A stretch of 64,000 nt of DNA from NCBI GenBank assembly GCA_026874595.1, contig CM049322.1, forward strand, positions 38,845,340 through 38,909,339, given 5' to 3'. Within the stretch, counting starts at the first letter, position 1. The number at the start of each line of letters is the position of its first letter. This document shows positions 9,801 to 50,970 of the stretch, one piece after another. The stretch comes from Sipunculus nudus. Lineage: Eukaryota > Annelida > Sipuncula > Golfingiida > Sipunculidae. The notes beneath the pieces are model-generated. The model did not search any database, was not told the DNA's origin, and saw only the letters and a program-made list of their open reading frames with translations. Made by a program: the position numbers and the translations under genes.

Positions 9801-10045
9801 CATAACGTTTGATGTACGTTACATAATAACAATACAATGCGTTTTAACAAAAGGCGTTTTGGAAGTACAGGACAACGTTCTTTAAATGTAAATACAAGGT
9901 TATATTTAAACGTTACATAAAGTACCTTGGACGGACGTTCCTGTATTTCAATATGACGTAAACTTGACGTTGCCTGCACGTTTCTAAATAATGTTATGAC
10001 CTGTAACTTTCCACGAACGTTACGTTTACGTACTGTGTTTGCAGG
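3850..10045. repeat. ACGT-rich satellite: ~315 bp monomers in 629 bp dimers
   Basis: Two related monomer types alternate. Type A carries ATACGTACATTTTACGTGC and type B carries ATACGTTAATTTTACGTGCC after a shared ACCGACTAATTTGCAATG. Type A starts recur near 4203, 4832, 5460, 6087, 6719, 7345, 7977, 8606 and 9235, giving a period near 629 bp. The edges (3850-4200 and 9546-10045) are strongly diverged but keep many ACGT words. One A monomer (about 4849-5150) contains eight ACGT tetramers where about one is expected. The right edge ends near GTGTTTGCAGGGTTG. Open frames of 75-140 codons on the minus strand simply repeat with the array and match no family I know, so I do not call them genes. Confidence 0.93.
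5546..8061. repeat. 1258 bp higher-order duplication inside the ACGT satellite
   Basis: Segments 5546-6803 and 6804-8061 correspond monomer by monomer at an offset of exactly 1258 bp, equal to four monomers. Frames beginning at 5546 and 5792 recur at 6804 and 7050 with identical or near-identical translation. The following dimers at 7891 and 8520 are offset by 629 bp and are also near-identical. This is higher-order-repeat organisation made by unequal exchange of a tetramer. Confidence 0.85.
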
Positions 10046-27078: not shown

Positions 27079-27762
27079 GCTCACGAACGGTGAATTTATA
27101 AAATTTCTAAATTGATTTCTAAACGGATTTGAAGCGGCAAACTTGTTTACTTACTGCCCGTGTGTAATACACCTCGTCGGGCTCGGTAACATAATGTTGA
27201 CCAATGTGACAGCGGTGATCGGTGTTAGGCAAGAAACCCTAGGGTTGATACAGCGGTATTAAATTTCTTTAATATTTTGGTGAAACGTGCGGAAGCAAAT
27301 TACTTTTCAGAACTCAATATCTGGTAGACGTGAAGAATGAAAATACATTTGGCAAGTTCTTTCAAAATTGCAATATATACCGAATATGCTAGAGAACTTG
27401 GTCTGTCCTGTGTATCAAATCTAGGAAAAACCACACATCACATCAGCCCTGGAACCTGGGTGACAGCTGGTATAATAATTATTCGTAAGGGAAGTGTCCG
27501 AAAGCCAAAGGGAGACCCATGGTTAATTGTGCGGTATTAATACCATAGGAAATATGAACATATTAATGGAATAACACAAAATCACCAAAATATAATTAGA
27601 TTGATTCTTCTGGGAAATGGCATATCAAATTTATAGGGAAAATCATTAATACTTCAAAAGTTATAAGAAGGGGGATTAGGCAATACTTTCAAAGTTATCA
27701 TTTTCATTTTTTAAAATCCCCAGTACTTCAAGTTATGTCGTTCCCAAAAACATGACATTTTG
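27079..27762. other. Spacer without recognised genes
   Basis: Open frame 27337-27540 has no family motif. The sequence is AT-rich and otherwise featureless. Confidence 0.45.
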
Positions 27763-27797
27763 GGTGATTTGACCCTGCATATCAAGGTCAAATCACC
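27763..27797. repeat. Perfect 12 bp inverted repeat (hairpin)
   Basis: GGTGATTTGACC at 27763-27774 is matched exactly by GGTCAAATCACC at 27786-27797, with an 11 nt loop. It could be a transposon end, a structured RNA element or chance. The arms contain a TGACC/GGTCA half-site. Confidence 0.85.
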
Positions 27798-27848
27798 TGT
27801 TTCCCAACTCCTCCAAGATTTTGGTAGAAATCGTTTGGGTTTCAAATT

Positions 27849-28044
27849 TCAAATGAGAAAAGAAGCAGCACTTGTAGCAGCAACAGTAATTGCATTCACA
27901 AAGACTGCCGCCGACAAAAGACTGGACTGAAAATAATATGTCTCAGCCAAAGACGGAGACATAAGCAACACATCATGTTTCAGGACACCAGATGTAACCA
28001 TAGCTGAGAATCTGGCAACATTGATATCTAAACAATAAAGGAAA
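27849..28044 (-). CDS. Candidate terminal exon, unassigned
   Basis: A strong pyrimidine tract ends in TTATTGTTTAG at about 28045, followed by a frame of about 60 codons (DINVARFSAMVTSGVLKH...) to a TGA at 27849. The C-terminal half is small, aliphatic and could be membrane-embedded. No family is recognised and no upstream exon was found, so the call rests on one acceptor and an open frame. Confidence 0.22.
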
Positions 28045-28656
28045 AAAAGGCATAAATCTAGAAACAAATACAGGTTCCACCAGTCTCAATGGACTGATCA
28101 AGTAGTCATGATAATAAAAAGACACCACGTGAAACACAGCTTGATACGATCGTTGTCATTTGTTGGTGTCAACATTAGAGGGAAAATGGGTGAAAAAAGA
28201 ACATTTAAGTGGGGCCACAAGACTCTAGCGGCTGATTGACCCATCCATAAACGAATGCTGAACGAATCCAGCAGTGCTTAGCCTGATGCTAAGAGCTGAT
28301 ACACAGAGTGTATATCAAAAGTGGTCAGTGTTTATTCTGAATTTACATCACATATATATATATATACATGAACACGTGTATTTCTGCAGGTAGAGCGTAC
28401 GGTAAAAACTAGCTTCCTTTCACGTTCGAGGGCTTCCTATAACAATTGGTCTGTGCAAACACACGGCCTGGCCAGTAGTAAAAACGTTACTGTAGTGTTA
28501 TTGCGAGGAGCCTTATCTTAAGTATGATTGATTAGCCCACTGAACCGACAAGGGAAATGTAATGTGATTTATCATTCTCGCCTTTATATAGACCTGGTCT
28601 TAATGCCAAACTCATTTAAGGATCCAGCAGACCTGGAAATTGATATTTCTGCTTAA

Positions 28657-28658
<2 letters not shown>
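28045..28658. other. Spacer without recognised features
   Basis: Unique sequence with a short (TA)n at about 28353-28367. No gene is visible. Confidence 0.45.

Positions 28659-28718
<60 letters not shown>
28659..28718. repeat. (TA)30 microsatellite
   Basis: Uninterrupted TA run of 60 bp. Confidence 0.97.
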
Positions 28719-28721
<3 letters not shown>

Positions 28722-28740
28722 CGTTGCTACTTACTTGTAA

Positions 28741-28795
28741 AAAGCCCTGTCTTTTTTATGCTGAAGAGGTCCTGAAATGTATAACATTTTGTAAA
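28741..28795 (+). pseudogene. Possible relic of the CTGAAGAGGTCC exon
   Basis: CTGAAGAGGTCCTGAAA at 28761-28777 is identical over 17 bases to 37187-37203 and near-identical to the 12 bp cores of two CARD-like exons on the opposite strand. In the GAA-GAG-GTC frame it reads FYAEEVLK and closes after eight more codons. It may be a detached exon copy. Confidence 0.25.
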
Positions 28796-29040
28796 TTCTA
28801 AGCCTGTTGCGAAATATATTTAACTTTTGGTGGATAATAGTTTCACAAGAAAAGTTGTGTTTGTAGGGAATAAAAACAGTTTACCCTACATAATGAAATA
28901 TCTTATTTTGATTTTTTTCTAATGCATATGTGAGCCATATCCATTTACTTTTATCCTGTAAAGTTAATTTAGTTAGTAATTTTGCCCGTACATAAGTCTT
29001 TGGGCTTCGAACAACGGTAAATTATAAAAGCTTTACTCAC

Positions 29041-29117
29041 CAACACCCAGCCTTCGTTTTCCAGGCTTGTCCGACAAGAGACCAGGTGCCAGTCGGTCCC
29101 CGTCTAATAACACTTCA
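29041..29117 (-). CDS. Candidate exon with strong donor, unassigned
   Basis: On the minus strand an open segment reads EVLLDGDRLAPGLLSDKPGK then RRLGV and ends at a good donor (G/GTGAGTAAAG). The only nearby acceptor, CTAATCTGAAG, is weak. Codon use and composition look coding, richer in GC than the surroundings. No family is recognised. Confidence 0.25.
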
Positions 29118-30429
29118 GATTAGCCCGGGAACTAGGATAACTACTTAGTAATATATCACAGAGCAAATGCTAGAAAACCAAAGGCAGAGCCTTTGTGAAT
29201 TGTATGATTATAAACTTATATATATAATAATAACTTATATGCACTTATATGCACTTATATATATAAATGTCTTAGATATTTACAAGTCGCTTGCAAATAC
29301 AGTGAACAGGGGCCTAAGGAAACAAACATGAGCCCAGATATGGTGTATTGAGCATTAGCTATTATTGGGAAGCAACCCTATATTTTGTTTTGTGCTACTA
29401 GCAAAAATACAACCAACAGAATTAGCACAGAGGGAGTCTTTGTTGCTGTGAGGGGCCATTTGGTCAACTGCTAGTCATTCATTCCTATGGCCAACAGTGC
29501 ATTTTATTGAGGTAAAGAGGTTCCAATGGGATATGTTACTATTCATATAATGGCATATAAATAAAAAATATTATAAATATTGTATGAGTATATATAAACA
29601 TAATATGCATGTGGACATGATATGCATGTAAAACCCTCATGATTTCAGGAGTACACTGACATGTTAATAAAATCATCTTTTTCATCTTTTTTGTTTTAAT
29701 TGTTTGTAAAATTGAAAAAAGGGGTTATGTACATGTGTTTACACCAGTTTACACTTTATTTTCACTAATTCATCTCAGACTGTGGCTCTTACATACGTAA
29801 GCTAAAGTAATTTTAATGCTGACAAAAGTTAACCTCTCACTTAAGTTTATCCACTTATCTCCCCTGCACAATGTAGACAACTCCCGCCACCAACGTTCTG
29901 GACACCTATCAATTGCCATTACAAAAACAAGAAGAAACCTTAGCCCTAGTACACGTATAGATAATATGTTCAATACCAGATACCTTATTGAGCGTACCTC
30001 ATAAAGGCTGTATGTAATGTATGATTAACACAGGAAATCGCAAGTTAAATCAGAAAGGAACCTTACCCTCTTTCTGTATAACAAAAAGGTTACATACAGC
30101 TATTCGCACGTATAGTTTTCTTTACATTCTGTCTACAAATAGACCTGGAACCTAGAGCAAAACTCTTATAGTCTTATATACGGGAGACGGGAGGTCTACC
30201 ATACTACAACTGTGTAATAGCACGCGTGTATGAGAAACTGAAATGGAGTCACCTGCGCTGTAGCTGTCGGGTAACATGATACGCTACCATGTCTAAGTTT
30301 AAGCTCCAGAGGAATAGGAGAGTTAATGTCCACATAAATACTTAACTATCCTTATATGGTAGAGGACTAAGGATAATGTATATATATATATATAATGTTA
30401 CGGAAACATTTTGCTAGAGGGAAAATATT
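29118..30429. other. Spacer without recognised genes
   Basis: AT-rich, with a short repeated TTATATGCAC near 29235-29262. Overlapping antisense frames at 29770-30004 show no motif. Confidence 0.45.
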
Positions 30430-30505
30430 GGGCCGATCACGGATTCGAACCCATATCGTGGTGCACATGTCCGGCGTTACAACCGCTTAGCTAGAAAAGC
30501 AAGCC
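30430..30505 (-). repeat. tRNA-like SINE head or pseudo-tRNA
   Basis: On the minus strand TAGCTAAGCGGTTGTAACG resembles an A box and GGGTTCGAATCC is a consensus B box. Stems do not close, so it is not a functional tRNA. It is flanked by (TA)n tracts at 30378-30394 and 30552-30588. Confidence 0.5.
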
Positions 30506-30551
30506 TCACGAGCGATACAGTTCGGTCTGCTTTTATATGCATCATGTAACA

Positions 30552-30588
<37 letters not shown>

Positions 30589-32114
30589 CACACATTTATA
30601 TAATACATCAAGTTTGAGCGAATGTCACATTAAACTGTGTGCATGGCTCCCTGCTAACCAACCGACCTATAAGTTGATATGAGACTATGAACAAGTATTA
30701 ATACCAATGGATGGGAGCTCATTCAGATAATATGAATGATCACATCAAGGGGTGGGGAGCTATTTTCATTCACTAGAAACGTGTTCGTATAATCTTAAGG
30801 CTCATGTTGCTACACCTTACACTATATAAACTCTAAGTTGTTAATCAAGCTCTCGTGCAAACGTTCGTATGGGCACCACTCCAACTCAAACATTTATATA
30901 CAAAGGTGAACTTTGTATGTATTGGGCTAGCTCTATATATTGTCATATGTTCAAATGATTTAATATAGATTTATAATTACCTCATATTTAGTATAACTCC
31001 ATTTTGCGTGTTATCCATGTGTTTATGTTAATATAACACTGTAATGTCCTCCATTAATATATTACAAACAATATCATTTTAACATGTTTACTTTCACTTT
31101 TTTCTGAATACCACAATACACAATTTTAATGGGTTTGTGCTTCATATAATATGTTGTATTAAAGTGTGTAGTAATACAGTTAATAAAGCAATAATTGAGC
31201 ATTCATTTATAGGAAAATCGGAAGTTTCGGAAGTTATGGAAGTTACAATAAGTAAACCCTAGCTCTACATGACGTAACAAACTTAACTATAATATTTACT
31301 TCGTTAAATACACTGCTGCCGCTACAAGCGTTAACTAAATGCTGCCTTACTCTGTTCTAACTTATACAGCTTAAATCAAAACATATTCTGCGTGGTTCTC
31401 TCTCTATATATGATATCAGAAGAAACATGGGTCAGTGGGGCATATGCCTGCGACAATAACTATGCTCTCTCACATTTAATGAATCTTTTGTCATATTCAG
31501 CATCATCATCATCATCATGATTGTCATCACCATGATCCTTTTTTAATGCTATCACTTTATGTGTACATGGATCTTTGATACAAACTATTCTTCATTTACT
31601 CGTGGGGACGGTATTGCAGTAATGGTGTAACAATAAATCGAATATATCGAGGACTGGTCATCTTCTTTGAAAATCATTAAAGTCTTTGCATAACCGATCA
31701 AAAAGGAGTATGTATGCACCTCCACAAAAGTCATATTATCCCGAACAAAAAATCTCACCCTGTCAGACATATGAGAAAGACGTTAACAAACCCAGCCGTT
31801 ACCTTGATCTTTCAACGTGATTTACATCAAGACTATATGTTAGGTACAATTCTATACGGCAGATTTCACGGTTTAATAGAAGGTACATAAAATATTTCTG
31901 TCAATGAACTTGGTTTTATAACTAATTCTAATCACTTCATTTCAGGCATCATCATCTTTGTCATTTACGTGAGCAGTACAGTTTTCTGTACATGTAATAC
32001 TGTTTCTAACTCTGTTTGTTATTATATGTATCGTTTAATTAAATTATATTGCTACACCTGGAAACTGTGTAATTCCTTTACCCAAAGTACTTGCCACAAT
32101 GAACTATAAATATG

Positions 32115-32159
<45 letters not shown>

Positions 32160-34280
32160 TATATTTATAATTATATTTATATTTATATATGTATATATAT
32201 ATAAAGGGACAAACTTGGTGCAATGTAATATTATACTCATAGAAAAGATAATATAAACGTTCATGTGGACAGTCACGTTTTATTAACTATTATTGTAAAT
32301 ATATCAATTTGGATTATCATCATATGCATGTCAAGGTGAAAGTCCACTGCAGTTCACTTCATATTGGCCTCCCAATTATATACTGTGATTGCCCTTTCCA
32401 CCTAACAAAATATACTCTGGTTTTTATGAGTAAAAGTCCCACCGTGTTTGTTTCATGTCAAAACTTTGAACTTAGTATGAATTATTCAGAAAAGCTAACT
32501 AGATAAAATTAAGGGAAGGTAATTTAAGAAAAAAAAGAATTATATCAACTCTCAAAATACAATTTCTTTTTCAAAGTCACCAAATACCTTGCATATACTC
32601 AGCACTTATCCTGAATTCGTTTGAACAAACTTCGTCCATCATGATAACTTTTACAATGGACACATATGGCCTTTACATTGTTCTGTATTGTTTTTATCAT
32701 TAAAAAGCTATCAGTACTTGACCTGTATGGAAATTGGGCCCTACAAGCAATTTTCAATATCAAATTATATCAGCGGTCACGCTTAGCATGCGTCATTTTA
32801 AGCAGTTAAACAGTCACTTGTTTCATATTTGCAGTTGTTTTCCACACGGTATTCGTTACAAAATTACAGTATTGTTTCTCGCAATAGGATTAAATATAAT
32901 GTGTTAATGGAATTCCATAAGTAGTTGTGTATAAACATATTTCATCATACATCTTCAGATACTGGAGACCTCTTGGCATTAATAAGTTATTAAGTAACCC
33001 ATACTAGAAAATTTATATGGGCGTCTACTTTCAATATAATGTTGTTTTGGCATATGTTACCCATATTTTACATAGCATGGCAGCTGGAATAAAAATATCA
33101 GCCAGGGTCCCAAATCAACATTTAATGTAATGGAAACATTAAGAAGAAATGGAGAAAGATGTGAACGCAGATTCAAGTAAAGGTGTTGGGATTTGAAAAT
33201 ATATAATAATAAGTAACAATATTTTAGCTAGAAAAAACACTCAGAGAGCGGAGACTTCATTCATATGACATTGCCAGTAATGGAGCATGTTTTCACTTTG
33301 AAATTCCTTGATCCAGATGGTGATTCTGATCACCCCCAAAATTTAAATACTTTCCATGCATCATTGTCGAGCTACCATGGAACATTCATCAAAATCCGTT
33401 AATATTTTTGAGTAATGTTACAAACAGAAAAAAAACTCCTTAATTGGTGGAGGATACAACAATGAAAAGACTACAAGCTGGTAACTATCAAACAGAATAA
33501 CCGAAATTGTGACAAGAACAGTGCGTGGATGATGAACGACAATGGGATAATGTACAATGAGGCTTACAAACCTTCCAAATATTCATTTTAAGGGTTTTTT
33601 ACAATTACTCTATTAAGGATAAATCCATTTTATTTGAAGATGCATATTATTTCATTTAAACCAAATAATCGAATATGCTAGTGTAAAAGGGTTAAATGTA
33701 CTTTCATAACTCTAGTTTTGAATTGTTGTAATTTGGAAAAAAATGATATAATTGAAAAACATGTAAATAATTCCCCAAAGTTTACCAAGTTGTATATTAT
33801 TCACGATGGCTCCCCAGTCCCCCGGGCTTTACCAATAAAAGAACTGCCCGTATTATCCGCTCGCAGGCGGGGGTATCATCCGGTTGCCAACCAGACTCAT
33901 TGTCGCTGGGATGCAAAAGATACCTATTCACATGCGAAATCTTAGCTTAATATTTGGTTTAGGAAAACGTTTAAATATATCTACGTCTACGTGAAACCAA
34001 ACATTGTTCGCATTGTCCCAGTTATTTTGCATATACAATTATCTGATAGATGAAGTCAAATCAAGAAGACTAAGTGAATACCAACGCTGCTTCAGCCATT
34101 ATGTGATTCGCGCTGTCATTCGATATCATTTTTACAGCTTTTAACCAAATAATACGCCTGTTTCGTTGAAATAATGTATAAGTATAAAAATGTCTTGATC
34201 TTACTACCATATGTCATGCTCTTTGTTCAACAGAAACAATAAAACAACATTTAGCGTTTTATGGAATAGTGTGTGAGTCA
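30506..34280. other. Long gene-poor spacer
   Basis: AT-rich sequence with a CAT-repeat block (31500-31530), a (TA)n run (32119-32155) and a following TTATAT-rich stretch. Open frames at 31585, 32309 and 33718 lack family motifs and splice support. I see no gene. Confidence 0.5.
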
Positions 34281-34490
34281 TATTGCCAACCCTCCTCCTT
34301 TTCCCGGGCTTGGGACCGGCAGGATGCTGTCTCATAGACGACGGCCATCCAGGCGGAGTTGATCAAGGTTCGGGTGATGTTCTCCGAAAGAGCGCTTAAA
34401 CTCTAAGAATCCTTGCCACATTGACAAGCCTACAGGGGTCCTTGTTGCCCGAACCTGTGTTGGGGTTTATCCTTGTTCAAAGTGTTCTCG
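34281..34490. repeat. GC-richer block, probably repeat-derived
   Basis: The composition changes abruptly to GC-rich (CTTTTCCCGGGCTTGGGACC ... GATGCTGTCTCATAGACGACGG) inside AT-rich DNA and then returns to background. That pattern suggests an inserted repeat or retrotransposon end. I could not find a second copy in the window. Confidence 0.3.
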
Positions 34491-34933
34491 CTTCTTGGAA
34501 AGCAAGTTGATTTGGTCACTTGTTTAACCTCTCTTACGGGCTGAAACAGCATCGATTGTGCACTCAATTAGAAAATGAAATCATACTAAACAAAAAATCT
34601 TTACCATTTCACATCCTAAACATTAAGATTAACTGTTCTCTATTTATTATATATTTTCCTTGTAGCTGTTGGTTATGATGCCAATAAGATTTGAACCTAG
34701 ATATTTTATTTTTAATAATAATATATTGAACCAACTAAAAACATTCAATTTTCTCAAAAAGTAAATCAGCATTTGCTTAAGTGATTTGTATATAACATAA
34801 TAAATGCTCTCAACCAATTCACATTGCAGTAAAATTACATAATAATTTTCCTATTACCGCTCAAAAAAGCTCAGAAAAATTCTTGGTCCTAGTAATACGA
34901 ATTAATTTAAGTCGATGCTGTTGTTTTACAAAC
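34491..34933. other. Spacer without recognised features
   Basis: AT-rich. Possible intron downstream of the exon at 35127-34934. Confidence 0.4.
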
Positions 34934-36132
34934 CTTAAGTGACAATACGTTTATATGATTCTCAGGCAGCATAATATTGTTTTGTCCTTTGGTGTCCTTT
35001 AACCTAGCAACACCGTGCCAGCTACATGCAGGATCAACCAAGGAGGTACCATCTATTGTACACTGAATACATTTGTCAGCAAGTGTGCTCACGTGAATCT
35101 CTGTTCTACGGGCCTTAACAGTTTTCCCTGGAAAATCATAGGTTACGACATTTACATGTAAAAACATCCGCACAAATGCGGATACAGATAACTAATCCGT
35201 ATAAAGCATGAAGAACGGTGATTTCGAGGGCAGGGGAAGTGTTATAACCTTTACTTATATTTTCCCCTATGCACAAAAGTTTGCATGCACCCAAGTGTCT
35301 TAATAGCTTATTTCCTTTTCAAACTCGAAGAGATTTATCTTTGAGGTTTACTTTATATTCAAGGCTACATTCCACTCTGTATTAAAACGATGAAAACTTC
35401 AACATACAATTAAACTGAGTTTTATGTTTTGTTTAGTAAATACCAAGTATAATCACGTCTTTATATAATGATGATCATAACATTATGGAATAAATAGGGC
35501 CTCTGATGTTTTAATACATTTACCTGATGGGAGAAATTTAATAACGTGTGCCTTCCCGACCTCTTCAGGCATTTTTTAATCGTTTAAAAGACCTATCTGA
35601 TTTATATTTCAATATTTGAAATAGATGCATCACTTTACTTGTATTTGATGGCTGGTTCTGAAAAATATGTTAATGCTGGTATCAATATGATATAAAAATA
35701 CCATAAAGTAGACTTAAAAATGCACTTAGTCACAAACTAGACAGCATGGGGATTTCATTTATTATATATCAGCAAAACCGTGTTTTTCCAAAAGCCTACT
35801 TCATAGATATAATATATACACATATTTATATACACTTAAATATACACACACACAAATAATTTAAAATGGTAGCTTAGTGATTTCCTTTTACCTGTAACTT
35901 GCTTAATTTATCTGAAAAGGTTTCAATAATATTGGAAATATTCTAATAACCGCAAATTATTAGAAACATCACATTAAATTGGCAAACCTCAATTTCTTCA
36001 AGCTCCTCCTCTAACAATACATTTGTTGATAATATCTCAACCTTAAGCTTAACATCCCAGCGCAGATATTTGACGATATCTGGCAAGGCACGATTAATGC
36101 CTGAACGAAGTTTCTCTGACATCATTGGAGCT
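34934..36132 (-). pseudogene. CARD-like gene fragment, three phase-matched exons, one in-frame stop
   Basis: Exon a (36132-35988, acceptor CTTCTTCCAG, donor GAG/GTTTGC) encodes a helical segment with LPDIVKYLRWDVKLKVEIL and ends EEELEEIE, as in helices 1-3 of CARD domains. Exon b (35596-35524, donor G/GTAAAT) continues LLND-stop-KMPEEVGKAHVIKFLPS, resembling helices 4-5. Exon c (35127-34934, acceptor GATTTTCCAG, donor AAG/GTTTGT) encodes 64 residues (KTVKARRTEIHVSTLADK...) with three Cys and no recognised family. Phases chain correctly (0 after a, 1 after b, 0 after c). The TAA in exon b is the only lesion. CARDs are homotypic adaptor domains in apoptosis and innate signalling. The CARD call is by pattern only. 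Exon b could instead be a true first exon starting at its ATG. Confidence 0.42.
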
Positions 36133-37140
36133 CTGGAAGAAGAAGAGATAAATACACATACTACAAATCACATACACATACACAATACTACAATACAGAT
36201 AATATTATTTATGTATACATGTATATATAAAGAAAAAAACGCGACAATTAAAAAATAGCTGAACGGGCGTAGGAAACGAAATATGATTGAAAAAATGGAA
36301 TTAGGAGTCTGGTTTGTGAAACATCAAGTACTATAGCATATATACAATGAAGCATAAACCTAAAAAACAGTTCTCGACTTAACAAGGGATCTAAAAGACG
36401 CTTCTGAAGAAGAATTACCGTGTTAAGCAAGAGCGACTGTATGAAAACAAACATGTTGATCCGTTGCCTATTCCTCTAATTGACGATTACAGATTTTTTC
36501 AGTTGGGTCAAGAATAATACCCTGACACCTTGATTTGTATTTTAACGACTGCGGTAATCGTTCTAACGTGTTTGTTGCAACATACTGTTCAACCCTTGAA
36601 TTTCAGTTATTTTTTACCAGGAATTATAATTTTTTTAAAAATATGAAACATCCCAAGAACATTGCTTTGTAGCCTGCTCGAGGATACTGGCTATGATTAC
36701 TCGTGCAATTGCATCAATACTAAAGCAATGACTAGAAGATCGCTGTTCCCTCCAACAGATCATTATGAGTCTCAATACCTATGAAGCAGGTTTCTGATCT
36801 ACAAATTTGAACTGCGCTTTTGTGAGGGAGACGGCTGGTGAATGCATTGGATCAGAGCCAATGATCTGGGAATTAGACTGCTGATCAATTAAGATGATCA
36901 GTGCCACTGCCCAGGGACAGTGATGGTTGATCCTGTCATTGGATCAGTGCCAATTCCCTCGAAAGAAGATTGCTCATAATGATCCAGGGCAGTGTCAATC
37001 CCCTCGCACAGACAATTCTGATTCTTCAAAGATAATACATGTGAAATCCCGGAGCTTTGAAATATATCCTGTAACGTTAACTATCTTTGTTGATAATCTT
37101 ACAAACTGCTAACATACACAGAGTTGTGTTTGGTTCATTT
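36133..37140. other. Spacer with loose GATCAGTGCCA repeats
   Basis: Words like GATCAGTGCCA and CAATTCCCTCG / CAATCCCCTCG recur irregularly at 36840-37010. A short open frame at 36248-36454 (minus) lies just upstream of the CARD-like exon but lacks a donor in phase. No start exon was identified. Confidence 0.4.
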
Positions 37141-37149
37141 GGGAAGAAT

Positions 37150-37220
37150 GCTTCACCTGTTTGTGATAAAAATGCTTCTGTTTATCCTGAAGAGGTCCTG
37201 AAAGAAGAACAATCAAGCTA
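37150..37220 (+). pseudogene. Possible relic of the CTGAAGAGGTCC exon
   Basis: CTGAAGAGGTCCTGAAA (37187-37203) lies in an open frame reading DKNASVYPEEVLKEEQSS before a TAA. It shares the EEV.K core with the exons at 35596-35524 and 43818-43744, but on the opposite strand. It lacks clear splice sites. Confidence 0.25.
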
Positions 37221-37378
37221 AAATTCAATTTGGCATGAAAAGTTGGAAGCGTTGCTTATATAGTGATGCACAAGACAGCGCATATATTGGTATCATTAAT
37301 ACTGTTTATAATCCTTGCTTTATCAAAATCTCAAAATACTTATTGGTGTCAAGATTCCTAGATGAACACACACAAACA

Positions 37379-37400
37379 TATATATATATATATATATATA

Positions 37401-37434
<34 letters not shown>
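37379..37434. repeat. (TA)n microsatellite, interrupted
   Basis: TA runs at 37379-37400 and 37403-37434 are separated by AACA-type interruption. Confidence 0.95.
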
Positions 37435-37436
<2 letters not shown>

Positions 37437-39223
37437 TTGGTAAACGTTGTAATTTTCTATATTACAGTCAATATAATTGGAGACAAGCTCACAACCAACT
37501 TACCTCTAGGCTTCCTCCTTATCATGTGCGGTGAGTGTTAGGCCTATTGTTGTATAACTATGTAGGGTCGTCATGTGAGATACCAGGGTCAATGATAAAG
37601 TTAATTAATCTTAATTGTTTATGAGACAAGTACATAATAGGCATAATGCACAAGGTAATATCTCTAGAATGTAACACTCACTTAATTCAGTACATCCCAT
37701 TTTGCTCCTAATTTAGATAACAATCTAAATGTATGTTAATAAAACATACGCTAAACAAATTTATCTAAAAGGAACTGTCACAGGTGATAAATTAAATCAT
37801 TATGAGATGAAAGTACGTAGATGTTTGTTTCAATCACGGCCCGTATTAAACTCCGGCAGGCAAGGCATTCATTCTCATTGTCATGGAGAGGCCGTTATCA
37901 TGGAAGTTGGGTACGATGTAAAATCAATGGCAATAATATCATAATTATAACTATAAAACGACGGAGATAGCTCTTCACTGTTTTGAGATACTTTGTGAAA
38001 GACAGAAATGGACATATTCTTACATCTTCCTGACGCTTTCCTTAACAACACGTTAAACGAAACAAGCTACCTAACCGTAAACGCGAATGAGAGCCAGCAG
38101 ACGCTACAGAAGTAGTGTTTTCAAAGTAGTGAGCTCCCATTTACCGTTCTTGGGTACATCTGGCTTCTGCCTTGTTGGGTAGCTTTTGTGCCCCCTCCCC
38201 TCGTATCCAGTCTTGGTATATTTTTGCGGTCAGCTTGTGATTTTTCCAGGGGCGTGGTTAGCATTTCCGAGGGGCTTAGTTTTTATACTTTAATTTCTCG
38301 AGTGGAGGGAGCTAGACGGTCGGATCCCCCTCCCTAACGTCAAAGCTCGGGCACTCGATAAAGATGGAAAACCTTAAGATTTCATGAGCTCCTTCTTTTT
38401 GTGCAGCTTCAGTGATCACATTCTCCAGTAAGCATATCAATTGGCAGTGTTCGGCCTTTCATTCCATGTTTTTTGTGTGCTCTTGGATACATGCTTGGTG
38501 ATAATTGTCCAACAGCCTTGTTTTAAGCCATGAAAGCATGGATGTTGTCAATGTCTACTGAGTGCTTGATGTTGTGACATCAGTTAAATCATAGACTTTA
38601 TCTGGGGGCCATCATGTATATAATGAATGCATCACACTCGGTCTCAAACTATTGCCTGGAAGATATGCAAAGCAAGAGTTGTAGAATATAGTCTTACCTT
38701 ACTTATACCTGAAATATATACATACGCCAGCAATGTACTGGATTATTTGGTCCAACAAAGAACTACTAGTTTCAACTTTAAGAAGTCGGTGAATATTGCT
38801 TGTTGCTGGGTAGACTTGAGTGACATCAGAGCTGTTTATTCTAGATATATTTTGAGCCCCAACAGTTGACGAATTAGAGGTAAACATTAAGGATCAGCTC
38901 AAGTTAACCCATGATCGTTGAACACGTGTTTCAAACGAGTTTCAAAGATCACCACATGGACGGTAAACATATAAAACACTGGACCATAAGTGTGTCTGTG
39001 GTTCAATATTTTATATGCGCAGAGAGATATATGTTATTTATTGATATATTCGCCCGATTCTGTACTCAATTTATGCTAAAAGATAATGTATATTAGTCAT
39101 TATCGAAAAACGAGGAGAGTGTATAGAGTGATATACATAGTGATTTATAAAACTTTCCTTGTTTCTGCAAGGAAATTCATTGCATTTTCTGTGATTTTTT
39201 AAAAGTTTTTAAAGAAGGAAAAG
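37435..39223. other. Gene-poor spacer
   Basis: A GC-richer patch lies at about 38100-38600, but no reading frame there is long or splice-bounded. Antisense frames at 38627-38887 overlap each other and show no motif. Confidence 0.45.
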
Positions 39224-39241
39224 ATGGCGCTCGAGCGCCAT
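39224..39241. repeat. Perfect 18 bp palindrome ATGGCGCTCGAGCGCCAT
   Basis: The sequence equals its own reverse complement and contains an XhoI-type CTCGAG core and four CpG or GpC steps in AT-rich surroundings. AAGATGGCG at its left edge resembles a YY1-type site. It may be a protein-binding site. Confidence 0.8.
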
Positions 39242-39885
39242 ACTTGAACAAGTCAGGAATCGCCGCCCTAGACGCTCCTTCAGCAAATATAAAGATGATA
39301 TTTTAATGAATATTTAATTACATTCTATTTACTATTAGGCCCAAAGAATAGGAGAAATTCAGAGGAGATAAAGATGAATAGCTAAGGTCATAAATATTTA
39401 ACGGAGCGGAAGGTAAGAGAATGCTGCTTGCTTAGTGGATGTGAAGTTAATTTCTTTCTAGGATGTGGTAGGATTATGTCTAGAGGAGAAACGATTTTAT
39501 TTTTGGCTATTGTATGCTTGTAGTCATTTGTTAAGATTTGTATTGAGTTTATATGTTTTATCATGTTGTAAGTGTTGACGGATTGTTCTATCATGTAATT
39601 TTTAACAATCGGTGTGTTTGTGCATGCTCTTAGTTCTGATATTTCAGTGAACCTGCTAACTGTTAACGCTGCTCTGAGGGCTTTATTTTGTTTTGAATAT
39701 TAGTGCCAAAGTTATGTAAAGGGTATCCATTGTGTTCCCTGTGATTCAAAGATGATTATAAGATGTTAATAGTGAAATACGTTGCTTTTCGAAAATGTAA
39801 AGGAGACATTATGGAGGAAATAGGAATAAACCCAGCAAGTGAATAAGGTAGACGAAATTAGACACAGAGCCAGTGATGGTGAGGT

Positions 39886-39888
<3 letters not shown>

Positions 39889-39937
<49 letters not shown>
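39889..39937. repeat. (TA)n microsatellite
   Basis: Uninterrupted TA run of about 49 bp. Confidence 0.97.
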
Positions 39938-39940
<3 letters not shown>

Positions 39941-40209
39941 GAAAAACCAATAGCTATTCATAAAGCCCATTGCATTATAAATGCTTGCAAGTTCCAGCGG
40001 TTCACTGTATGTTCTTGGATGTAAAACACGACCCATTAATCACAATTGGAAACGTAATGTATAATTTGATAAAGCTAGACAGCGATAAACAAAGAATGCC
40101 CAGGGTTCAGTATATAGGCTGATAAGACCATGAATGTTGGAAAACACATGTGCAAACGTAGCCGTGATATCACGACTCAAATACGTCAAATAATTGTTTT
40201 TACATAATG

Positions 40210-40413
40210 TTAATCCAACATAGGTATTCCAGAAAGATCAATTTGTACTTTAAAGCCTATATTGCCTAACAATTCGTAATACGTCTTTGATATTTCTAGG
40301 CGTGAGACAAGTACAACCAGTGACCATTCAAGAGATATTTTCTTGAGCAGAGTAGTTTTTCCCATTGAAGGTGCACCATGAATCATCATTCTTTGTGTAG
40401 GTCCGCGAATTTT
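40210..40413 (-). CDS. P-loop (NACHT-type) NTPase exon, partial gene
   Basis: An acceptor (CCTCATTTTCAG) at 40415-40414 opens a 67-codon frame in phase 0: KIRGPTQRMMIHGAPSMGKTT then LLKKISLEWS. GAPSMGKTT is a Walker A motif, preceded by a hydrophobic strand (RMMIHG) and followed by LLKKISLEW, the usual start of NACHT domains in NLR-type receptors. The frame continues to a TAA at 40212-40210. Whether coding stops there or at an internal donor such as S-L/GTTGTA is undecided. No Walker B or further NACHT motifs are seen downstream. Phase 0 entry fits the phase-0 exit of the exon at 35127-34934, and CARD-like exons lie upstream at 44 kb, so a CARD-NACHT gene is plausible. Other STAND or AAA families remain possible. 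Confidence 0.55.
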   Translation of the reverse strand, partial: KIRGPTQRMMIHGAPSMGKTTLLKKISLEWSLVVLVSRLEISKTYYELLGNIGFKVQIDLSGIPMLD

Positions 40414-41049
40414 CTGAAAATGAGGTTGTCCTAGCATAAGGGAACATATTAAGGCGATACTTTATGTGAGTTAGCGACAACAATGCTCTTTGATATATTG
40501 GAACTGAATATAACTAATAAAGTAAATTATATAAAATTATGGTAAACACCGCTATTTACAATTTGTAATACGAAGTTAAAAATAAACAGGTAACTATAGA
40601 AATACTCTCTGGAAAAAAATACCCTCGTATCATTTAAATTGATTGTATCAACTGATACACAGGTCTGCATTGCTTGTTTAATTCTTAATAATATATTATT
40701 TATGTCTATTTGTAATAAGTTATGGCATGTAAGCATAGTCAAGCAAAATTACTTTTGAGTAAAATTAACGACAAGACCAGTTGAGCTTTGTGTCTTCTGA
40801 TTTCTGAGATTTAGAGCTACAGTCTGCTGTATATAACGTAACACTCGCCTTTTCATTTATATGACCATGATGTAATAAACATGAGTCTTCCCCAAATACC
40901 ACAGCATCCAATTGCACATAGAATTAAAAGTAATAACGTGCTTCTAGAATCGTGTTCGCTATCTTTCTTCGGATCACTTTCGATGTAGAATTTACTGAAA
41001 CAGAATTTTATTCAATGCAAAAAATTTGACCAAATTTGTATGCAGACAT
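40414..41049. other. Spacer or intron without recognised exons
   Basis: AT-rich sequence between the P-loop exon and the repeat element. No coding signal is visible. Confidence 0.4.
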
Positions 41050-42131
41050 TAAAAAGTGAAGTGACCCATGGGTCATGACACTCAGCTGACCAGCAGGTCA
41101 TTTTAGCCTAACATTCACAACAGGAATTTTAGCATCTAAAGCTATATTGAGATTAACTTCAGATGTGATCTTGACCATTGATCTTCTGACAGCACCGTCG
41201 ACATGGTTCTTCCGAAAGTCATGGATCACACGTGCAAACTGAATCCACTCATGACTAGTCTATACAGGTTGTATGAGAGAAGAATAAGATCAAATTCCAG
41301 ATCACCAATTTTCAAGCTACAAAGAGGACTTGATTGAAACATTTTGTCTGTCAAAACTAAGGACAAAATAGAAGTTATCACGTTCACAAGAATCTCCAAA
41401 GCACTTTAAAATATAAAGAAATTGGGTAAAAAATAAAAAAAAACAGGTGCCGCCATTAGTCATAACTGATATAACTAGTCATGCTAAAAAATGTAGGAGG
41501 TTTCACTACACTAGATCAAACCAGAAATGAGAAACTGACATCTTGCTGTGATAAGACAGTCTAAACATTTAGGAAAAAAGGCGGGAAAATCGAAAAAAAA
41601 CAGTGGTTCCACAAATCTTCGGAAAATGATAAAACTAGTAATCATCAATAAAAAATATGAGGTTTCAGGACGCTAGATGAGACCACAGATGAAAAACTGA
41701 CACCTTGCTTCAATTTGGCAGTCTAAAAGTATAAGAAAAATATGCCTGACAAAAAAAAATGTGAAGCCACCAGTCTTTGGGAACTAATCATGATCAATAA
41801 ACATATGAGGTTTCACTACACTAGATGAAACCAAGAAAGAGAACCAGTCTAAACATGCAATCTATGCATTAATTATTGAGATACAAGAGATCTTGTATCA
41901 AATTTTGAATTATTATGGGGGTAGATTCAAGCCCCTTAGGTCAAAGAATATCGGCCACAGTGACCTAATTTCAAGAGTCAAGGGAGATATTTAAGGACCC
42001 TCCTGAATCTTAAATTAGAACATTCTACTTTTACCCTGTTAATGGACAACCGGAAGAACTGACGACCTGACGGCCAGATGGACGAAGATAAAAGAGTGAT
42101 CTCTGTTGCTCAGATGAGAGTCATCTGAGCT
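41050..42131. repeat. Interspersed repeat with ~157 bp internal units and hairpin end
   Basis: Three internal units start near 41448, 41604 and 41764, each with a CCAC/CCGCC..AGTC box, AACTAGTAATCAT-like words, ATATGAGGTTTCA, ACACTAGATGA and a CAGTCTAAA end. A 14 bp palindrome TGACCCATGGGTCA lies at 41062-41075 near the left edge. The right edge is a hairpin, GCTCAGATGA (42108-42117) and TCATCTGAGC (42121-42130), followed by an A-run. This is the layout of a non-autonomous mobile element; the class is not determined. Confidence 0.65.
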
Positions 42132-43120
42132 TAAAAAAAGTATTCCATATATTCAGTAAAATCTTTCCGTCCATGGCCAAATTTAGACAATAAAAATATT
42201 ATTCAGTCACTGAACGTTTCTTTCTCCAACATTATGATCCAAAAATTAATTCGTCACTATGTGTATTCAAAATTCACAATTTACTCGCTGGTGCGCATTT
42301 ACCTTGAATCACAAAGATTTTTTTTGTAAAATAAAAAAATGCATGTTTTTATTGATAACTGAGATGACGAGAACATGCCTTAGTCATTTTGCTCAAAATA
42401 TGCGAGCCCAATGACCTGTTATCTGTGTGTTTGTTCTCTACAATATATGGATGCCACAATGGATACAGATGATAATAAAGATATATCCAACGTTTATATA
42501 TTTGCATTTAAGCCCAGGCTAGATATTCTGAAGAGCGTTAAAAATACACAAAGCTTTGTCCACTCATATGAAAAACTTATGTGATCGGTTGTGTGTGTGT
42601 ATATCAGAGAAATATCTTCGAAAGAGTATTGCTATGAGGTTTTGGGGAATGACGGGCCATAGGTGACACCAGAAGCTTTTAAATTTTGTTGACTGATCGG
42701 TGGAATAAGTGTGCTGGTCTGGATCCAGGCAATCCAAGCTCCAAGTAAATTCAGAACTTTTTTAGGAATTCCTTTGGACATGGAAGGTAACTTTAACTTC
42801 CATGGATACTTTAACTTTTATAATGAGTAACCGACATTGTCTTGTCGTCAACGTCATAGAACTCTGATGCTGGACCATGACGTCAAATTACGTTTCAAGG
42901 TCCTGACAAGTTGCTGTTTGCGCCATTACGGTGTTTATCTTGATCATGTGGCCCATGGCCACTTCACTCCTTCATTACACGAAGCCGCCCATGGAGATCC
43001 AACAGTACATTTTTTTTAAATATGTTCATATAAAGCGTAATTAAGAAGTCCATTCACACACACGTACACACACACACACACATATATATTATATTTATAT
43101 ATGGGCTAGTCCATATACAT
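42132..43120. other. Spacer or intron without recognised exons
   Basis: AT-rich. A (CA)n tract lies at about 43058-43082. Open frame 42837-43019 has no motif. Confidence 0.45.
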
Positions 43121-43375
43121 ATGGGCTAGGTATCGTCAAGCTTAGTACGCTGGACTTGTGACCGTAAGGTTGTGTGTTCGCGTCCTGTTCTGACCGCCGT
43201 CTGTGATAAGACTCCTAGCTAAATATTTACAACAAGGATGCACCCTATCGATCCAGGATTGAAAAGGTACTGGTCATGATCGGCAGGCATATGTAAAAAG
43301 AATAACCTTCTAAAGCGCCTGTTATGGCTGCATGGGTTGCATGTTCCCCTGGGAGCCGATAAAAGCTAAAAGGAG
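43121..43375 (+). mobile_element. tRNA-like SINE, different family
   Basis: GGTATCGTCAAGCTTAGTACG resembles a degenerate A-box region and TGTGTTCGCGTCC a B box, at tRNA-like spacing. A body of about 190 bp follows and ends near GATAAAAGCTAAAAGG. The sequence differs from SINE copies A-C. A duplicated ATATGGGCTAG at the left edge may be a target-site or copying artefact. Confidence 0.55.
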
Positions 43376-43448
43376 GAACAGGCCCAAAAGACCAGGAAGG
43401 CAAAGTGCAAAGTCGGACGAGACTGACATCATCAGTGAGAACACACTA

Positions 43449-43500
43449 CCCCCCCCCCCCCCCCATCTGTTACCTTCGATCAAAGGGGTGGGGGGGGGGG
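43449..43500. repeat. C16 tract facing G11 tract
   Basis: Sixteen C (43449-43464) are followed 25 bp later by GGGGTGGGGGGGGGGG (43485-43500). The tracts are complementary, so they can fold as a hairpin; the G run can also form a quadruplex. Such sites are unstable and difficult to sequence. Confidence 0.9.
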
Positions 43501-43743
43501 ACTGGGATCAGATTATTCATCATCAGTCAGCAGAGCCTGTACAAAACCACATATGCTACACATCTTTAATAGTTTTTTTCAGAACTGGAGAGCTCCAAAC
43601 GCACTTAATGCTTCTCATTAAACGTGTGGGAGTATCGGATTAGGCATTTGTTCCAAGTTATATTTTTAGTGCAGATACAGGTGTGGGCGGAGGTATTCGC
43701 TCTGTTAGTGCCTTCTAGTCAATGCATACATCTTTGTATTTAC

Positions 43744-43909
43744 TAGAGAGTATGCATTTCACAACATGCTTCTTTCCGGACCTCTTCAGACAGTAAAGCC
43801 GTTCAGTTTATTACGACGCTTTCAATATAGTACCTGTACCCAGCTTCATAACACATCTTTCTTTATTAGGTACGAGTGTACAAGATATCAATATATATAT
43901 ATAAATATA

Positions 43910-43975
<66 letters not shown>

Positions 43976-44383
43976 TGTCCAACCACTAAATGAAAATATT
44001 TCTACTTTACTGTACTTGTTTCGAATTGGGTTACCTCGACTTCCTCTAGTTCGTCCAGTGATAGTACGTCATGTGAGAATAACTTGAAGAAAGCAAAATT
44101 TTCTACCAAGGAACTGGCTGCGAAAGGTAGACACATCCTTCGGAGATGCCTAAAGGCCTTAAGTTATGTTTGCAAATGTATACATATATAAATACAAAAC
44201 ACGTTAAATAAGATACTGTACAGTCGCAAATCAAATACTAAACAAGAACTTTTAAATCCCTATGAACAACAAATGTTAAGTGGTTATGTAAAAAAAATCT
44301 CAACGTAAAGTTTTATGTATTCCTGCATAAGAAATTAAAAAAAAAAAGGAAAACGTACCAGTGTCTCTTCAATTTTTTTCCAT
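43744..44383 (-). pseudogene. Second CARD-like gene fragment, frameshifted
   Basis: Exon 1 (44383-44359) starts with ATG in ACATGG and ends at donor G/GTACGT, but an A7 run puts a TGA in frame. Eight A would restore both the frame and the phase required by exon 2. Exon 2 (44149-44035, acceptor CCTTTAG, donor GAG/GTAACC) encodes HLRRMCLPFAASSLVENF then AFFKLFSHDVLSLDELEEVE, paralogous to the exon at 36132-35988 in phase, donor position and ending (LEE[IV]E). Exon 3 (43818-43744, donor A/GTAAAT) contains the EEV-type core CTGAAGAGGTCCGGAAAG, with HVVKCILS in a different frame from the entry frame. With at least two lesions this is probably a pseudogene, although homopolymer sequencing error could explain exon 1. 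It may be the 5' part of the gene containing the P-loop exon at 40.4 kb. Confidence 0.42.
43890..43973. repeat. (TA)n microsatellite inside the CARD-like locus
   Basis: A TA-dominated run of about 80 bp lies in the intron between CARD-like exons 2 and 3 (44035 and 43818). Confidence 0.95.
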
Positions 44384-45756
44384 GTCAGCGAGGGAGATGA
44401 TTAATGTACATATCCGTGTGCACTAAGAAATATGAGAAGCGTTTTGTATATAATGTACCTAGGGTGTGCACTGAGAAATTTAAAGAAACGCTTTATTTGC
44501 ATTTATGTATAGACAAGTAATAAACAAAAATGATTGTTCTGCTTTACATTTTTTTAAAGAATATATTAGGTAGAATACACGGTAATACTGTTTATAGCGT
44601 GGTCCTATCAATCTGTCGTGGCATCCATCATGTGATTCAGCTGTTTGAAGAAAAAATAAGAAGATTTCCTTTAGGCTCCGGCCCTTGTATGCATGCCACA
44701 CACACCAGAGGAAGTTTTCTGTTCCTAAATGCTACTCATCGACTAATAGCGCATTAGTTTTCATTTCTTTCCGATTGATTTAGCCAGAATTACACAATTC
44801 ATAGTACTTAAGTCATACATCCAGAAGAGGGTTCTTGTGATTGTATGGTTTCTATACTTTTCTTATTTTGTAGGGATGTTTGTTTTGAGTAAACTTACGT
44901 CACTAATAACACCAATTGCAGACTGAATTATATATTGCAATTATGCCATATCTTGTCCAATTATAGTTCTCTACATATAAACCTTAATCTGTATACATCC
45001 AAACCATATGAACCGAATATTGAAAATTACTACACCGAATTAAACCAGTAGCGACATTTTTCGCGCATAATGCAAAGAGTTTAACAGAGCAACCGTGCTA
45101 CACAAATTATAAAATAGTGATTTTCATTGATCTGTTTCAATATATAATCGTACATATTAAAATCTTTATACATAATTTATGCTCTTATTTGGGTTTTGTA
45201 TCTTTGTTATATAATTGTTAAAGATATAGATAATGGGGTTGATTTTGATCCGCCGTGCTGTATCACACAATCTGTCTCCCTACATATGCAGTTAATTTAC
45301 TTTATGAAAATAAATAATAACAATTTTACATTAACTTGTTTTGACAGAAGCCTTACAACAAATTAAACATGATGGTGACTTTTTACAAAGATTTTCATGT
45401 ATTTCTTACCAGCCAGGCATCGGCCCCCTGACTGGTTTATATAGAATAGATTAAATTGATTATATGTCTGTACTGGTTGAAGGAGCTAACATTTTATATT
45501 ACCAAAGCCTGGAATCTGAATGTCATCAACCTATTTCACCTTTACTTGAGGTCGTCTGGGATGACATGCATAGATAGCTTTGATACCCTTAGATTTCATG
45601 GATGAAGCGCAATCATACAGTCATACAGACATATGCTAGTATGACCACCCTAGAACCACTGCACAGGAGAAATTTTACCTAATGACTCGTGGCCGCAGGA
45701 ATTACATGAAATGACTTAAATGTTTAGGCATTTCATGAAATGCCTGAATTCACATT

Positions 45757-45810
<54 letters not shown>

Positions 45811-46498
45811 GTATATATATGTGTATGTACTTGATACGCTTTTTCACGAATTATGATGGTCTCATAAGCACGGCACATATACCGCGGGCTTTGGGGTTAC
45901 CTTCCTAGAGTTAATAATAAGGCAACGGCTAACCACTTCATGGCGACGTTAAGAATGCCAACATGGATCTTAACTAATGACAGAGAGATAGAGTGTATGA
46001 CATTGGGTATATACCATTAACGAAACGGTCAGTTGTAATTGCTGTATAATTTAAATCAAAGCAGTTTAGTGTATTTTTATGGAGAAATGTAAAATTACAA
46101 ATGGATTTTGCTGTACCCCTGCCTTCATTATCCTACTGAAATATTACATAACGAATCAATTTTAATATTGTTATAAGTGATATACGTAATGTTACTATAG
46201 CGGATACCCTCAACGTATTATTTTAGATCGTACAGAAAAAAATAAGACACTTGTTTGATACCGCTTATGAAGGGAGGTTGTAGTTGCCCGTCCAAGGTCG
46301 GTTGTTTTCCCCGGGTTCTTCGGCATTCTCCATCTCTAGAGACTACCAAACGCTACCTTCCGAGCTAAGGAGTCTGTATAATATTAATTATTATAACTAG
46401 TTGTACAATTCATGTAAAAATTAAATTTATAATTTAAAGAAATTTAGAAAATATCTCAAATATTGTTTTTATCACGTTAATATGTTCTTCCCATGTAG
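44384..46498. other. Gene-free spacer with (TA)n at 45759-45807
   Basis: AT-rich. The (TA)n run is about 49 bp. Overlapping frames at 44480-44757 are antisense to each other and lack motifs. No exon was recognised. Confidence 0.5.
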
Positions 46499-46651
46499 GT
46501 GAATTGCACAAACTGGAAGCCTGGACGGACTTCAAATATGAAAAAAACACCACCCTTTTCTCCTGTGTATTTCTTACCAATAACGGCTCTTGGTTTGATA
46601 ATGCATGCCCAACGGTGCATCGTTTCAAATGCTCCAGAGACACTCTTGCAG
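46499..46651 (+). pseudogene. C-type lectin domain exon with A7 frameshift
   Basis: The exon opens in one frame as VNCTNWKPGRTSN and, after seven A, the next frame gives FSCVFLTNNGSWFDNAC and VHRFKCSRD, the usual conserved Cys-Gly-x-Trp-x-Asp-x-x-Cys ending of a C-type lectin fold. One base added or removed in the A run would unite the two. KPG replaces the more common QPD/EPN motif, so sugar binding of a calcium type is not expected. Confidence 0.65.
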
Positions 46652-47582
46652 GTATGTTGTTTATAAAAAACCATATCCTACTATGTGTTATTATTGTGCG
46701 ACAGCTTGGTTAAGGTCATACAAAATGTCCGAAAATTTCCCTGCTGGTGTATTTCAATCTTAATACAGAGGAGACTTTGTTTGATATCTATGTTATAATC
46801 TGTATCAGCGGTATTCCGTTGTGTTTGCAACTAACCAAGTCTTGACAACTGCCAAATGAATGAAGAGACACTTTCGAGCTGTGGGACGTTTGCTGTCGTG
46901 AGGGTTGAATGCTCATATCCATATATCAAGGTAAGATTTCCAAGATACTCTCTAAGATATTTACCAGAAGATTGAGAACTTAACAGTAATTTACTAGAAT
47001 AGGCGTACCATGATTCCAGTTAATAATAATTCCATTCTCACTGCTGACAATTTAGGGGAAAGAAATCGATGGGGCTCAGTTAAAAACAGAAAAAAATCAT
47101 TTAAAACTGAGATTTTGTTTTCAATATTCCAAATTATAATTTACAATTGTAAATGAACGGATAATCGAGGCAGATGAAAACAAATCCGTGAGACCTCACA
47201 ATTGTCACTTTCATATGTGGTATTAATTTGTATGAATACTATATTTCGTAAAACATTTTTCGTGTCACTTTATTGTGCATAGATATTTCTATATCGGAGC
47301 ACACTTAGTGCTTGAATTAGAGAGAAACTTAAGTTGTTTCATTTTTTTATATTTTATCAGACATCATTTTTGGAAAGGTTTATTTAGATAAATTAAAAGC
47401 TTATTGATCAAAGCAGAATTTAATCGCTAAATAAATCATTTTTAATCCAGTCATTTTCGAAAAAGACCTGGACCAGAAACTGCACCCTAGTCGCACAAAT
47501 ATAATTCGGATATTGTCCTGTAACACACACACACACACAAAGACATATAATGCTATTAGTTTCTTAGTTTCTTTAACTTTAG

Positions 47583-49427: not shown

Positions 49428-50970
49428 TTAGTTCTTACTGTATACGGGAATGGCGTACACCTCACATATTGCTTTAAAATCTTCAGAACATTTAAAGTTT
49501 GCCCAAGCGTACCTCATTAGAGGCATTATTGCTCCGCAATCTTGTTGAACAACTGTGTTGTCAGGTTGTCCCGGCAGCCAATTGTCATATTGCATCTTTT
49601 CACCATTAGCAGCACACACCCACACGTTTTTATCCCTTTTAAAAGTAGCAGAGATCCAATATTTGGTGTTCTCTAGGCAGATACGCAATTTACCTGAAAA
49701 AATATTGAGAGCTTTCATACTAATATATCGTAAGAAATTGTTCTTTTAACATAAACTCCATCAGAAAATGCTGTTTGTACATATGTACATATTGCTTTGA
49801 AAATGTACAGATGTGCAGATGTACCAATGTACAGATGAAAAGATGTACAAATGTACACATGTACAAATGTACAAATGTGTAAATAAAAATGTTGCTTGGA
49901 TGATTATTATCATACTTTGTGCCCAGTTATATTCTAAATGTCCACTTAAACTAAAACTTTAACGTTAATATCACAGTAATCAGGGATACATTTCTTTTCA
50001 CTGGTATCCTGGTCCAAGAAATAGTCATTAAATCAACACAATAGGCACCATAGTATATAAAACACTGCAAGTGCTGAAGGAAAAATTCACGAATAAGGGA
50101 AACAAACATATGTTTCAGAATACAAATAGGAATTGAACCAATACCGTTACCTTTTTTTAATGTAAATCAAATGATCAATGTTAGGCTCGACAAAAATTTA
50201 AAAATGGTTAGTTTATTAGTTTTAAAGACTATATGTTGAGAAGCTGAGATCAAATGTTAATTAATATGACGATTATATAGATTTTATTCTGTATTGACAG
50301 AATATGATATAATTTAACATAAAATTATATCATAGAGACTAAAATAAGACGAAACCCAAAAGTAGACATCATATAAATTGAATTAAACCCATTTTTATAG
50401 CAAATTGGGCACGATTTTTTTTCAAATTTTCAATGAATGCGACAATACAGATACCAATACATAAAAAATTAAATTTTTTACTAGAATATCTATCTTAGTC
50501 AAAGGGTAAAGATAACAATAACTGATGGATGTCCCGTTCTGGTTGTATATTTGGAGGAATATTTTCATGAATTCTTTTTTATGTTTTCATTGGTATATCG
50601 TTTATCATGACAAGGTAAAATGTGATCAGCTCTTTTGACTTTTCGCATAAGGTAAAAGGCTACTAATACGTCGACATACCTTTGTCTGGTCAAGTAAGAA
50701 TATTAAATGATATACTGATAGGCAAATGCAATTTAATGAAGAGTATTCAAATCATAGCATCATCCCATATATCTAACTTTTTTTACACAGACAGGGATAT
50801 ATTTTTACCTTTGCAACCCTTATGATTCATTTTGCTCTCCAGCATAATGTATAATATCCTAGGACCGTCTTGGAAATATTGATAAAGAACTGTAACGTAC
50901 TCCTGGTGAAATCTTTGATAGAGTTGTGACAAAGTCATGGCATTTACTATGCTCAAAGGTGATTTTAGAG
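49428..50970 (-). CDS. C-type lectin domain gene, two 3' exons (partial)
   Basis: The terminal exon (49693-49428, acceptor AATATTTTTTCAG) encodes a C-type lectin C-terminal half: CLENTKYWISATF, a W-rich strand, DNWLPGQPDN with a QPD motif, QQDCGAIM, WANFKCSEDF, KAICEVY, then a TAA. QPD is the galactose-type calcium-site signature in family knowledge, and WANF stands where WND is usual. The upstream exon (50970-50809, acceptor TTTGTCAG, donor G/GTAAAA) is open, phase 1 at both ends, and encodes 54 residues (LYQRFHQEYVTVLYQYFQDG ...) ending NHKGCKG. It joins in frame to the lectin exon. That exon does not look like the first half of a lectin fold and I cannot assign it. No start exon or signal peptide was found within 51-52.4 kb. 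The gene may be intact but incomplete here. Confidence 0.68.
49776..49883. repeat. ~10 bp ATGTACAAATGTAC minisatellite
   Basis: GATGTAC / AATGTAC words recur about ten times over 100 bp inside the lectin intron. Confidence 0.8.

Follow-up and report, generated by a model that had tools for sequence, protein, structure and literature searches.

The 64-kb window considered here (the whole stretch of DNA that was analysed, 64,000 nucleotides of Sipunculus nudus, C17:38845340-38909339, in a genome of 1.43 Gb and 153 contigs) carries on its minus strand a group of exons related to CARD and NACHT domains, which are probably what decay has left of NLR-type (CARD-NACHT) genes. The block that holds them is duplicated, the chromosome is rich in NLRs, and introns together with CARD, NACHT and C-type lectin domains indicate an animal genome. 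Read 5' to 3' on the coding strand, these are CARD-A exon 1, CARD-A exon 2, an exon with a P-loop, CARD-B exons 1 and 2, and a candidate exon of 64 residues (Table 1). By what is established for NLRs, working relatives would act as sensors in the cytosol, oligomerising through the NACHT ATPase and using the CARD to bring in partners that also carry one. In the window, CARD-B is broken in frame, CARD-A can be recognised in part, and the P-loop exon is a truncated NACHT start; in the paralogous copy of the block, CARD-B and the 64-residue exon are intact, and another CARD follows downstream, then a pre-NACHT and a NACHT exon. In the reading that we favor, the copies in the window would make no working receptor.

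The original prediction for this DNA, made from the letters alone, had proposed CARD-like exons duplicated around a P-loop exon, and its CARD call was borne out by hidden Markov model searches, for which the Pfam cut-offs were 23.9 bits for CARD (PF00619), 26.7 for NACHT (PF05729) and 22.6 for Lectin_C. CARD-B exon 1 joined to the open front of exon 2 matched CARD at E 4.2e-5 and 23.9 bits, exactly at the cut-off, and the paralogous CARD-B, in which both exons are open and the ATG lies at the same place, reached 36.8 bits. None of the CARD exons from the window had a Pfam match on its own, and the joined CARD-B found nothing in a PDB sequence search at E up to 10; two PDB matches to the exon 1 frame (E 0.84 and 1.4) were weak and unrelated. 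No open frame runs through both CARD-B exons in the window, where exon 2 carries two 1-base deletions relative to the open frame of the paralogue. The likeness of exon ends that had suggested a duplication was also recovered, the motif LEE[IV]E occurring just twice in the six frames of the 64 kb, both times on the minus strand with GT directly after it. CARD-A exon 2 matched a profile of CARD exon 2 at E 1.8e-4 when close relatives served as seeds and at E 0.029 when the profile was built from distant seeds only. As DNA, CARD-A and CARD-B are barely alike: the score of 33 between their first exons was reached by 11 of 300 shuffles, and the score of 54 between their second exons was reached by none of 300 shuffles, with other places in the window reaching 53. 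The CARD exons are real, and CARD-A is a decayed second copy.

The paralogous block lies ~238 kb from the window locus on the same contig and aligns collinearly with window positions 27604-47064 in ten pieces (67-83%), besides which there are a few short matches out of order or within AT repeats. Between the two copies, CARD-B exon 1 is identical at 127 of 153 bases without gaps (36140-35988), exon 2 at 117 of 132 with two gaps, and the 64-residue exon at 159 of 194 (82%) with two 6-base gaps, both in frame, as against 62, 66, and 73% with many gaps for the three introns beside these exons and 50% for the sequence ahead of exon 1. The donor of exon 1 and the splice sites of both CARD-B exon 2 and the 64-residue exon are kept in the paralogue. 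CARD-A shows a 1-base gap near the end of exon 1, in the paralogous copy, and a 4-base gap in exon 2, in the window copy. The minus-strand order of the paralogue is CARD-A, CARD-B, 64-residue exon, CARD-C, pre-NACHT exon, and NACHT; the window segment 40145-43555, which includes the P-loop exon, has no match there, its place being occupied by ~400 bases. CARD-C scores 23.8 bits, just below the cut-off, and has its own in-frame ATG. The NACHT exon of the paralogue scores 29.5 bits and carries both a Walker A and a Walker B motif (YYLLDGLE), although its frame appears to break close to its end.

The P-loop exon of the window has a weak match to Pfam NACHT, with 18.5 bits (E 0.0019) falling short of the cut-off, but it matches the full NACHT exon of the paralogue with 38% identity over 65 amino acids at E 2e-9, which upholds the predicted P-loop NTPase; the exon is a truncated NACHT start. 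Its motif, at 40377, is one of two stop-free occurrences of GxxxxGK[ST] in the six frames, and its start at 40430 (phase 1) was assigned by eye, as was the finding that the frame contains Walker A alone and no Walker B. A Pfam scan of 97 window frames of at least 70 amino acids gave NACHT once, tblastn of NACHT exons against the window found no second place at E<0.01 (in one query set only four of the eight queries were true NACHT frames), and a profile of the pre-NACHT exon had no match in the window. An NLR gene in the window, with a pre-NACHT exon and NACHT following the CARD, was thus not found, the P-loop exon being the only NACHT piece found. Of the NLR-type architecture first proposed, what stands is the pair of domain calls and a duplicated NLR-type locus; the order of CARD, 64-residue exon, and NTPase does not.

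A NACHT search of the genome, in which 98 of 417 candidates were scored so that the counts are lower bounds, listed at least 99 matches, at least 55 of them on C17, which makes up 61 of 1427 Mb; judged by its share of the listed matches, C17 is NLR-rich. Twenty of the 99 listed matches, 16 of them on C17, were sampled, each with ~8 kb upstream. In 10 of these 20 loci the NACHT is preceded, on its own strand, by a CARD exon 2 (leave-one-out profiles, E 2.9e-5 or better), and none has one on the opposite strand at E<0.4. A pre-NACHT exon is present in 18 (all except L019 and L024), as detected with a profile whose seeds were drawn from several of the same loci. The CARD-NACHT combination is therefore ordinary in this genome and has already been published elsewhere. 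As a previously undescribed domain combination, the locus does not hold up. All 10 CARD loci have a phase-1 donor candidate for CARD exon 2, some together with candidates in other phases, and of the 18 loci with a pre-NACHT exon, 15 have a phase-1 acceptor candidate for it, including 9 of the 10 CARD loci; 10 have candidates of phase 1 alone. CARD and pre-NACHT exon thus appear usually to be joined in phase 1 on both sides. With phase 1 in and phase 0 out, the 64-residue exon would break the frame if placed at that join as a single extra exon.

Several points weigh against reading the window locus as decayed remnants in this way. With dN and dS (nonsynonymous and synonymous substitutions per site) estimated by the Nei-Gojobori method from few codons per exon, window against paralogue gave a dN of 0.16 and a dS of 0.31 for CARD-B exon 1 (dN/dS ~0.5) and 0.17 and 0.27 for the front of exon 2 (~0.6-0.7 for this exon), the codon numbers behind the ratios of the two exons being 46, 30, and 11; a degree of constraint since the duplication is thus possible. 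The deletions in CARD-B exon 2 are near each other and could in principle be assembly errors, and the paralogue sequence compared has a 2,500-base gap between the 64-residue exon and CARD-C. The argument from phases is built on candidate splice sites, several loci also having candidates in other phases; the pre-NACHT acceptor candidates are of phase 2 only in two loci and absent in one, and the splice-site scan found no acceptor for the pre-NACHT exon of the paralogue itself.

A different, unlikely reading makes CARD-B and the 64-residue exon a small gene of the CARD-only type, with a lineage-specific tail, whose product would act as a CARD decoy or adaptor. This gene would be intact in the paralogue, and possibly also in the window should the exon 2 deletions be assembly errors. 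The open CARD exons, unchanged ATG position, and conserved splice sites of the paralogue are what such a gene would be expected to show, as are the in-frame gaps of the 64-residue exon and its higher identity compared with the introns. An AATAAA follows this exon after 224 bases in the window and 255 in the paralogue, the hexamer being common by chance in A/T-rich DNA. On the other hand, CARD-B exon 2 is frame-broken in the window, and the 64-residue exon, although its frame is open, has a dN of 0.22 and a dS of 0.19 (dN/dS ~1.1 against its single relative), and its frame stayed open in 33% of the runs when 35 neutral substitutions were simulated 5000 times. The residues that would follow the exon up to the stop also differ between the copies. 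Structure prediction, one of the checks suggested for this exon, gave no confident fold: mean pLDDT (predicted local distance difference test) was 43.0 for two sequences and 52.1 for 70 residues of the paralogue's frame alone, so that the models were too weak for structure searches. The exon has no Pfam match and no PDB sequence match at E up to 10. A further claim would have the intact C17 paralogue encode a CARD protein whose 64-residue tail is lineage-specific and evolves fast, a possible CARD decoy derived from an NLR by loss of NACHT and gain of a new terminal exon; we would give it a small chance.

The remaining candidates for parts of this gene fared as follows. An open frame at 34540-34433 was rejected as a further exon (dN/dS ~2.1), lying as it does at the edge of a block (window 33393-34500, L031 4343-5500) where the two copies match at least as well as they do in the coding exons and no coding signal was found; this block is possibly a younger repeat or a product of gene conversion. 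A weak likeness of the 64-residue exon to L010 4322-4444, seen with a one-sequence query at E 0.006, fell to E 3.6 with a two-sequence profile and a larger set. The protease exon described below (15176-14469) would, by eye, fit CARD-B in its start phase, but it lies ~20 kb off, and no linking exon was found.

It is very improbable that the 64-residue exon adds a new domain between the CARD and the NTPase of an NLR, as the original prediction suggested. CARD exon 2 does join the exon in phase (PSG|GKTV), and the paralogue does have NACHT further downstream on the same strand. In the window, however, the P-loop exon, at 40.4 kb, precedes both CARD-B (36.1 kb) and the 64-residue exon (35.1 kb) on the coding strand, so the proposed order is not borne out, and in the paralogue CARD-C, with its own ATG, stands between the 64-residue exon and NACHT. 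The frameshifts in CARD-B exon 2 also speak against such a protein, as does the phase 0 at the exit of the 64-residue exon, unlike the phase-1 acceptor of most pre-NACHT exons. Nor was the exon found where this reading would place it: sought with the two-sequence profile in the 20 sampled NACHT loci, it gave no match with an E below 3, and a genome search at E<=0.1 (four candidates scored) found one further copy, at C17:39118396-39118587, 60% identical. Most likely, this exon either forms the tail of the CARD-B gene, as its last exon or ahead of another that was not found here, or is decaying, and it is not the middle domain of a CARD-NACHT protein. That all of these are chance open frames unrelated to CARD or NACHT is barely credible, for although the single CARD exons and the 64-residue exon lack Pfam matches, the P-loop exon scores under the cut-off, CARD-A and CARD-B share little as DNA, and openness alone is no proof of coding where two frames of at least 90 amino acids are seen and 1.7 are expected by chance per 11.5-kb strand, the paralogue passes the CARD cut-off, the splice sites are conserved, and the P-loop exon matches a NACHT exon, which refutes chance for CARD-B and the P-loop exon and leaves it possible for the 64-residue frame.

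Table 1. Features of the probable CARD-NACHT remnants in the window (positions counted from the first base of the window)
Feature	Position	Strand	Description
CARD-A exon 1 remnant	44035..44160	-	Ends in LDELEEVE, donor GAG|GTAACC; no in-frame ATG seen
CARD-A exon 2 remnant	43745..43807	-	LKRSGKKHVVKCILS; only the last part of CARD exon 2 recognisable
P-loop exon	40213..40430	-	Truncated NACHT start, Walker A GAPSMGKT; frame closes after 73 codons
CARD-B exon 1	35988..36125	-	From ATG to donor GAG|GTTTGC, phase 0
CARD-B exon 2	35524..35657	-	Two 1-base deletions; donor CAG|GTAAAT, phase 1
64-residue exon candidate	34934..35127	-	Phase 1 in, phase 0 out
Non-coding-looking block	33393..34500	none	Two copies mostly 76-98% alike per 50 bases

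Elsewhere in the window, the minus strand carries an open exon of a trypsin-like protease at 14469-15176, with what look by eye like the His, Asp, and Ser motifs; Trypsin_2 was matched at E 9.5e-17 in one of 54 frames scanned, the PDB search points to this frame, and the best solved relative is FAM111A (E 1.3e-10). Also on the minus strand are a C-type lectin exon at 49431-49745 (Pfam 29.6 bits, above the cut-off) and an open frame of 348 amino acids at 60814-61857, which has several hydrophobic stretches and looks receptor-like by eye, with no Pfam match at E<=0.1. Positions 430-10000 hold tandem arrays with units of ~340 and 630 bases, recognised by eye from open frames that repeat at regular intervals. 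Among the sampled NACHT loci, L010 (4804-5103 and 6871-6984) and L021 (2242-2601 and 3551-3694) have C-type-lectin-like exons upstream of the pre-NACHT and NACHT exons, with Pfam Lectin_C scores (22.5 and 18.4 bits) that fall below the cut-off; inspection by eye also points to a hydrophobic exon there that resembles a membrane span.

Together, these data point to a single NLR-rich chromosome on which CARD-NACHT genes have been copied, disrupted, and reshuffled. CARD-only proteins exist, for example human CARD16 and CARD18, and a possible product of the paralogous CARD-B with its tail would resemble them; should the intact paralogue turn out to be expressed, it would clearly exemplify how a small CARD protein can arise from a piece of an NLR. 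CARD-NACHT proteins are known in many invertebrates (PMC11508797). The paralogue and half of the sampled loci share with these NLRC-type proteins a CARD placed ahead of a pre-NACHT exon and a NACHT exon, whereas the copy in the window is broken and dispersed and comes with a 64-residue exon that was not found in the sampled relatives. The sea cucumber AjNLRC4 (PMC8699970) is an Ig-NACHT membrane receptor, another NACHT protein from an animal whose N-terminal part is out of the ordinary; the window locus differs from it in being CARD-based, and in L010 and L021 of the present genome C-type-lectin-like exons lie upstream instead. These two loci possibly encode membrane receptors combining a lectin domain, a membrane span, and NACHT, in which case they would parallel the Ig-NACHT protein of the sea cucumber, with a lectin instead of Ig.

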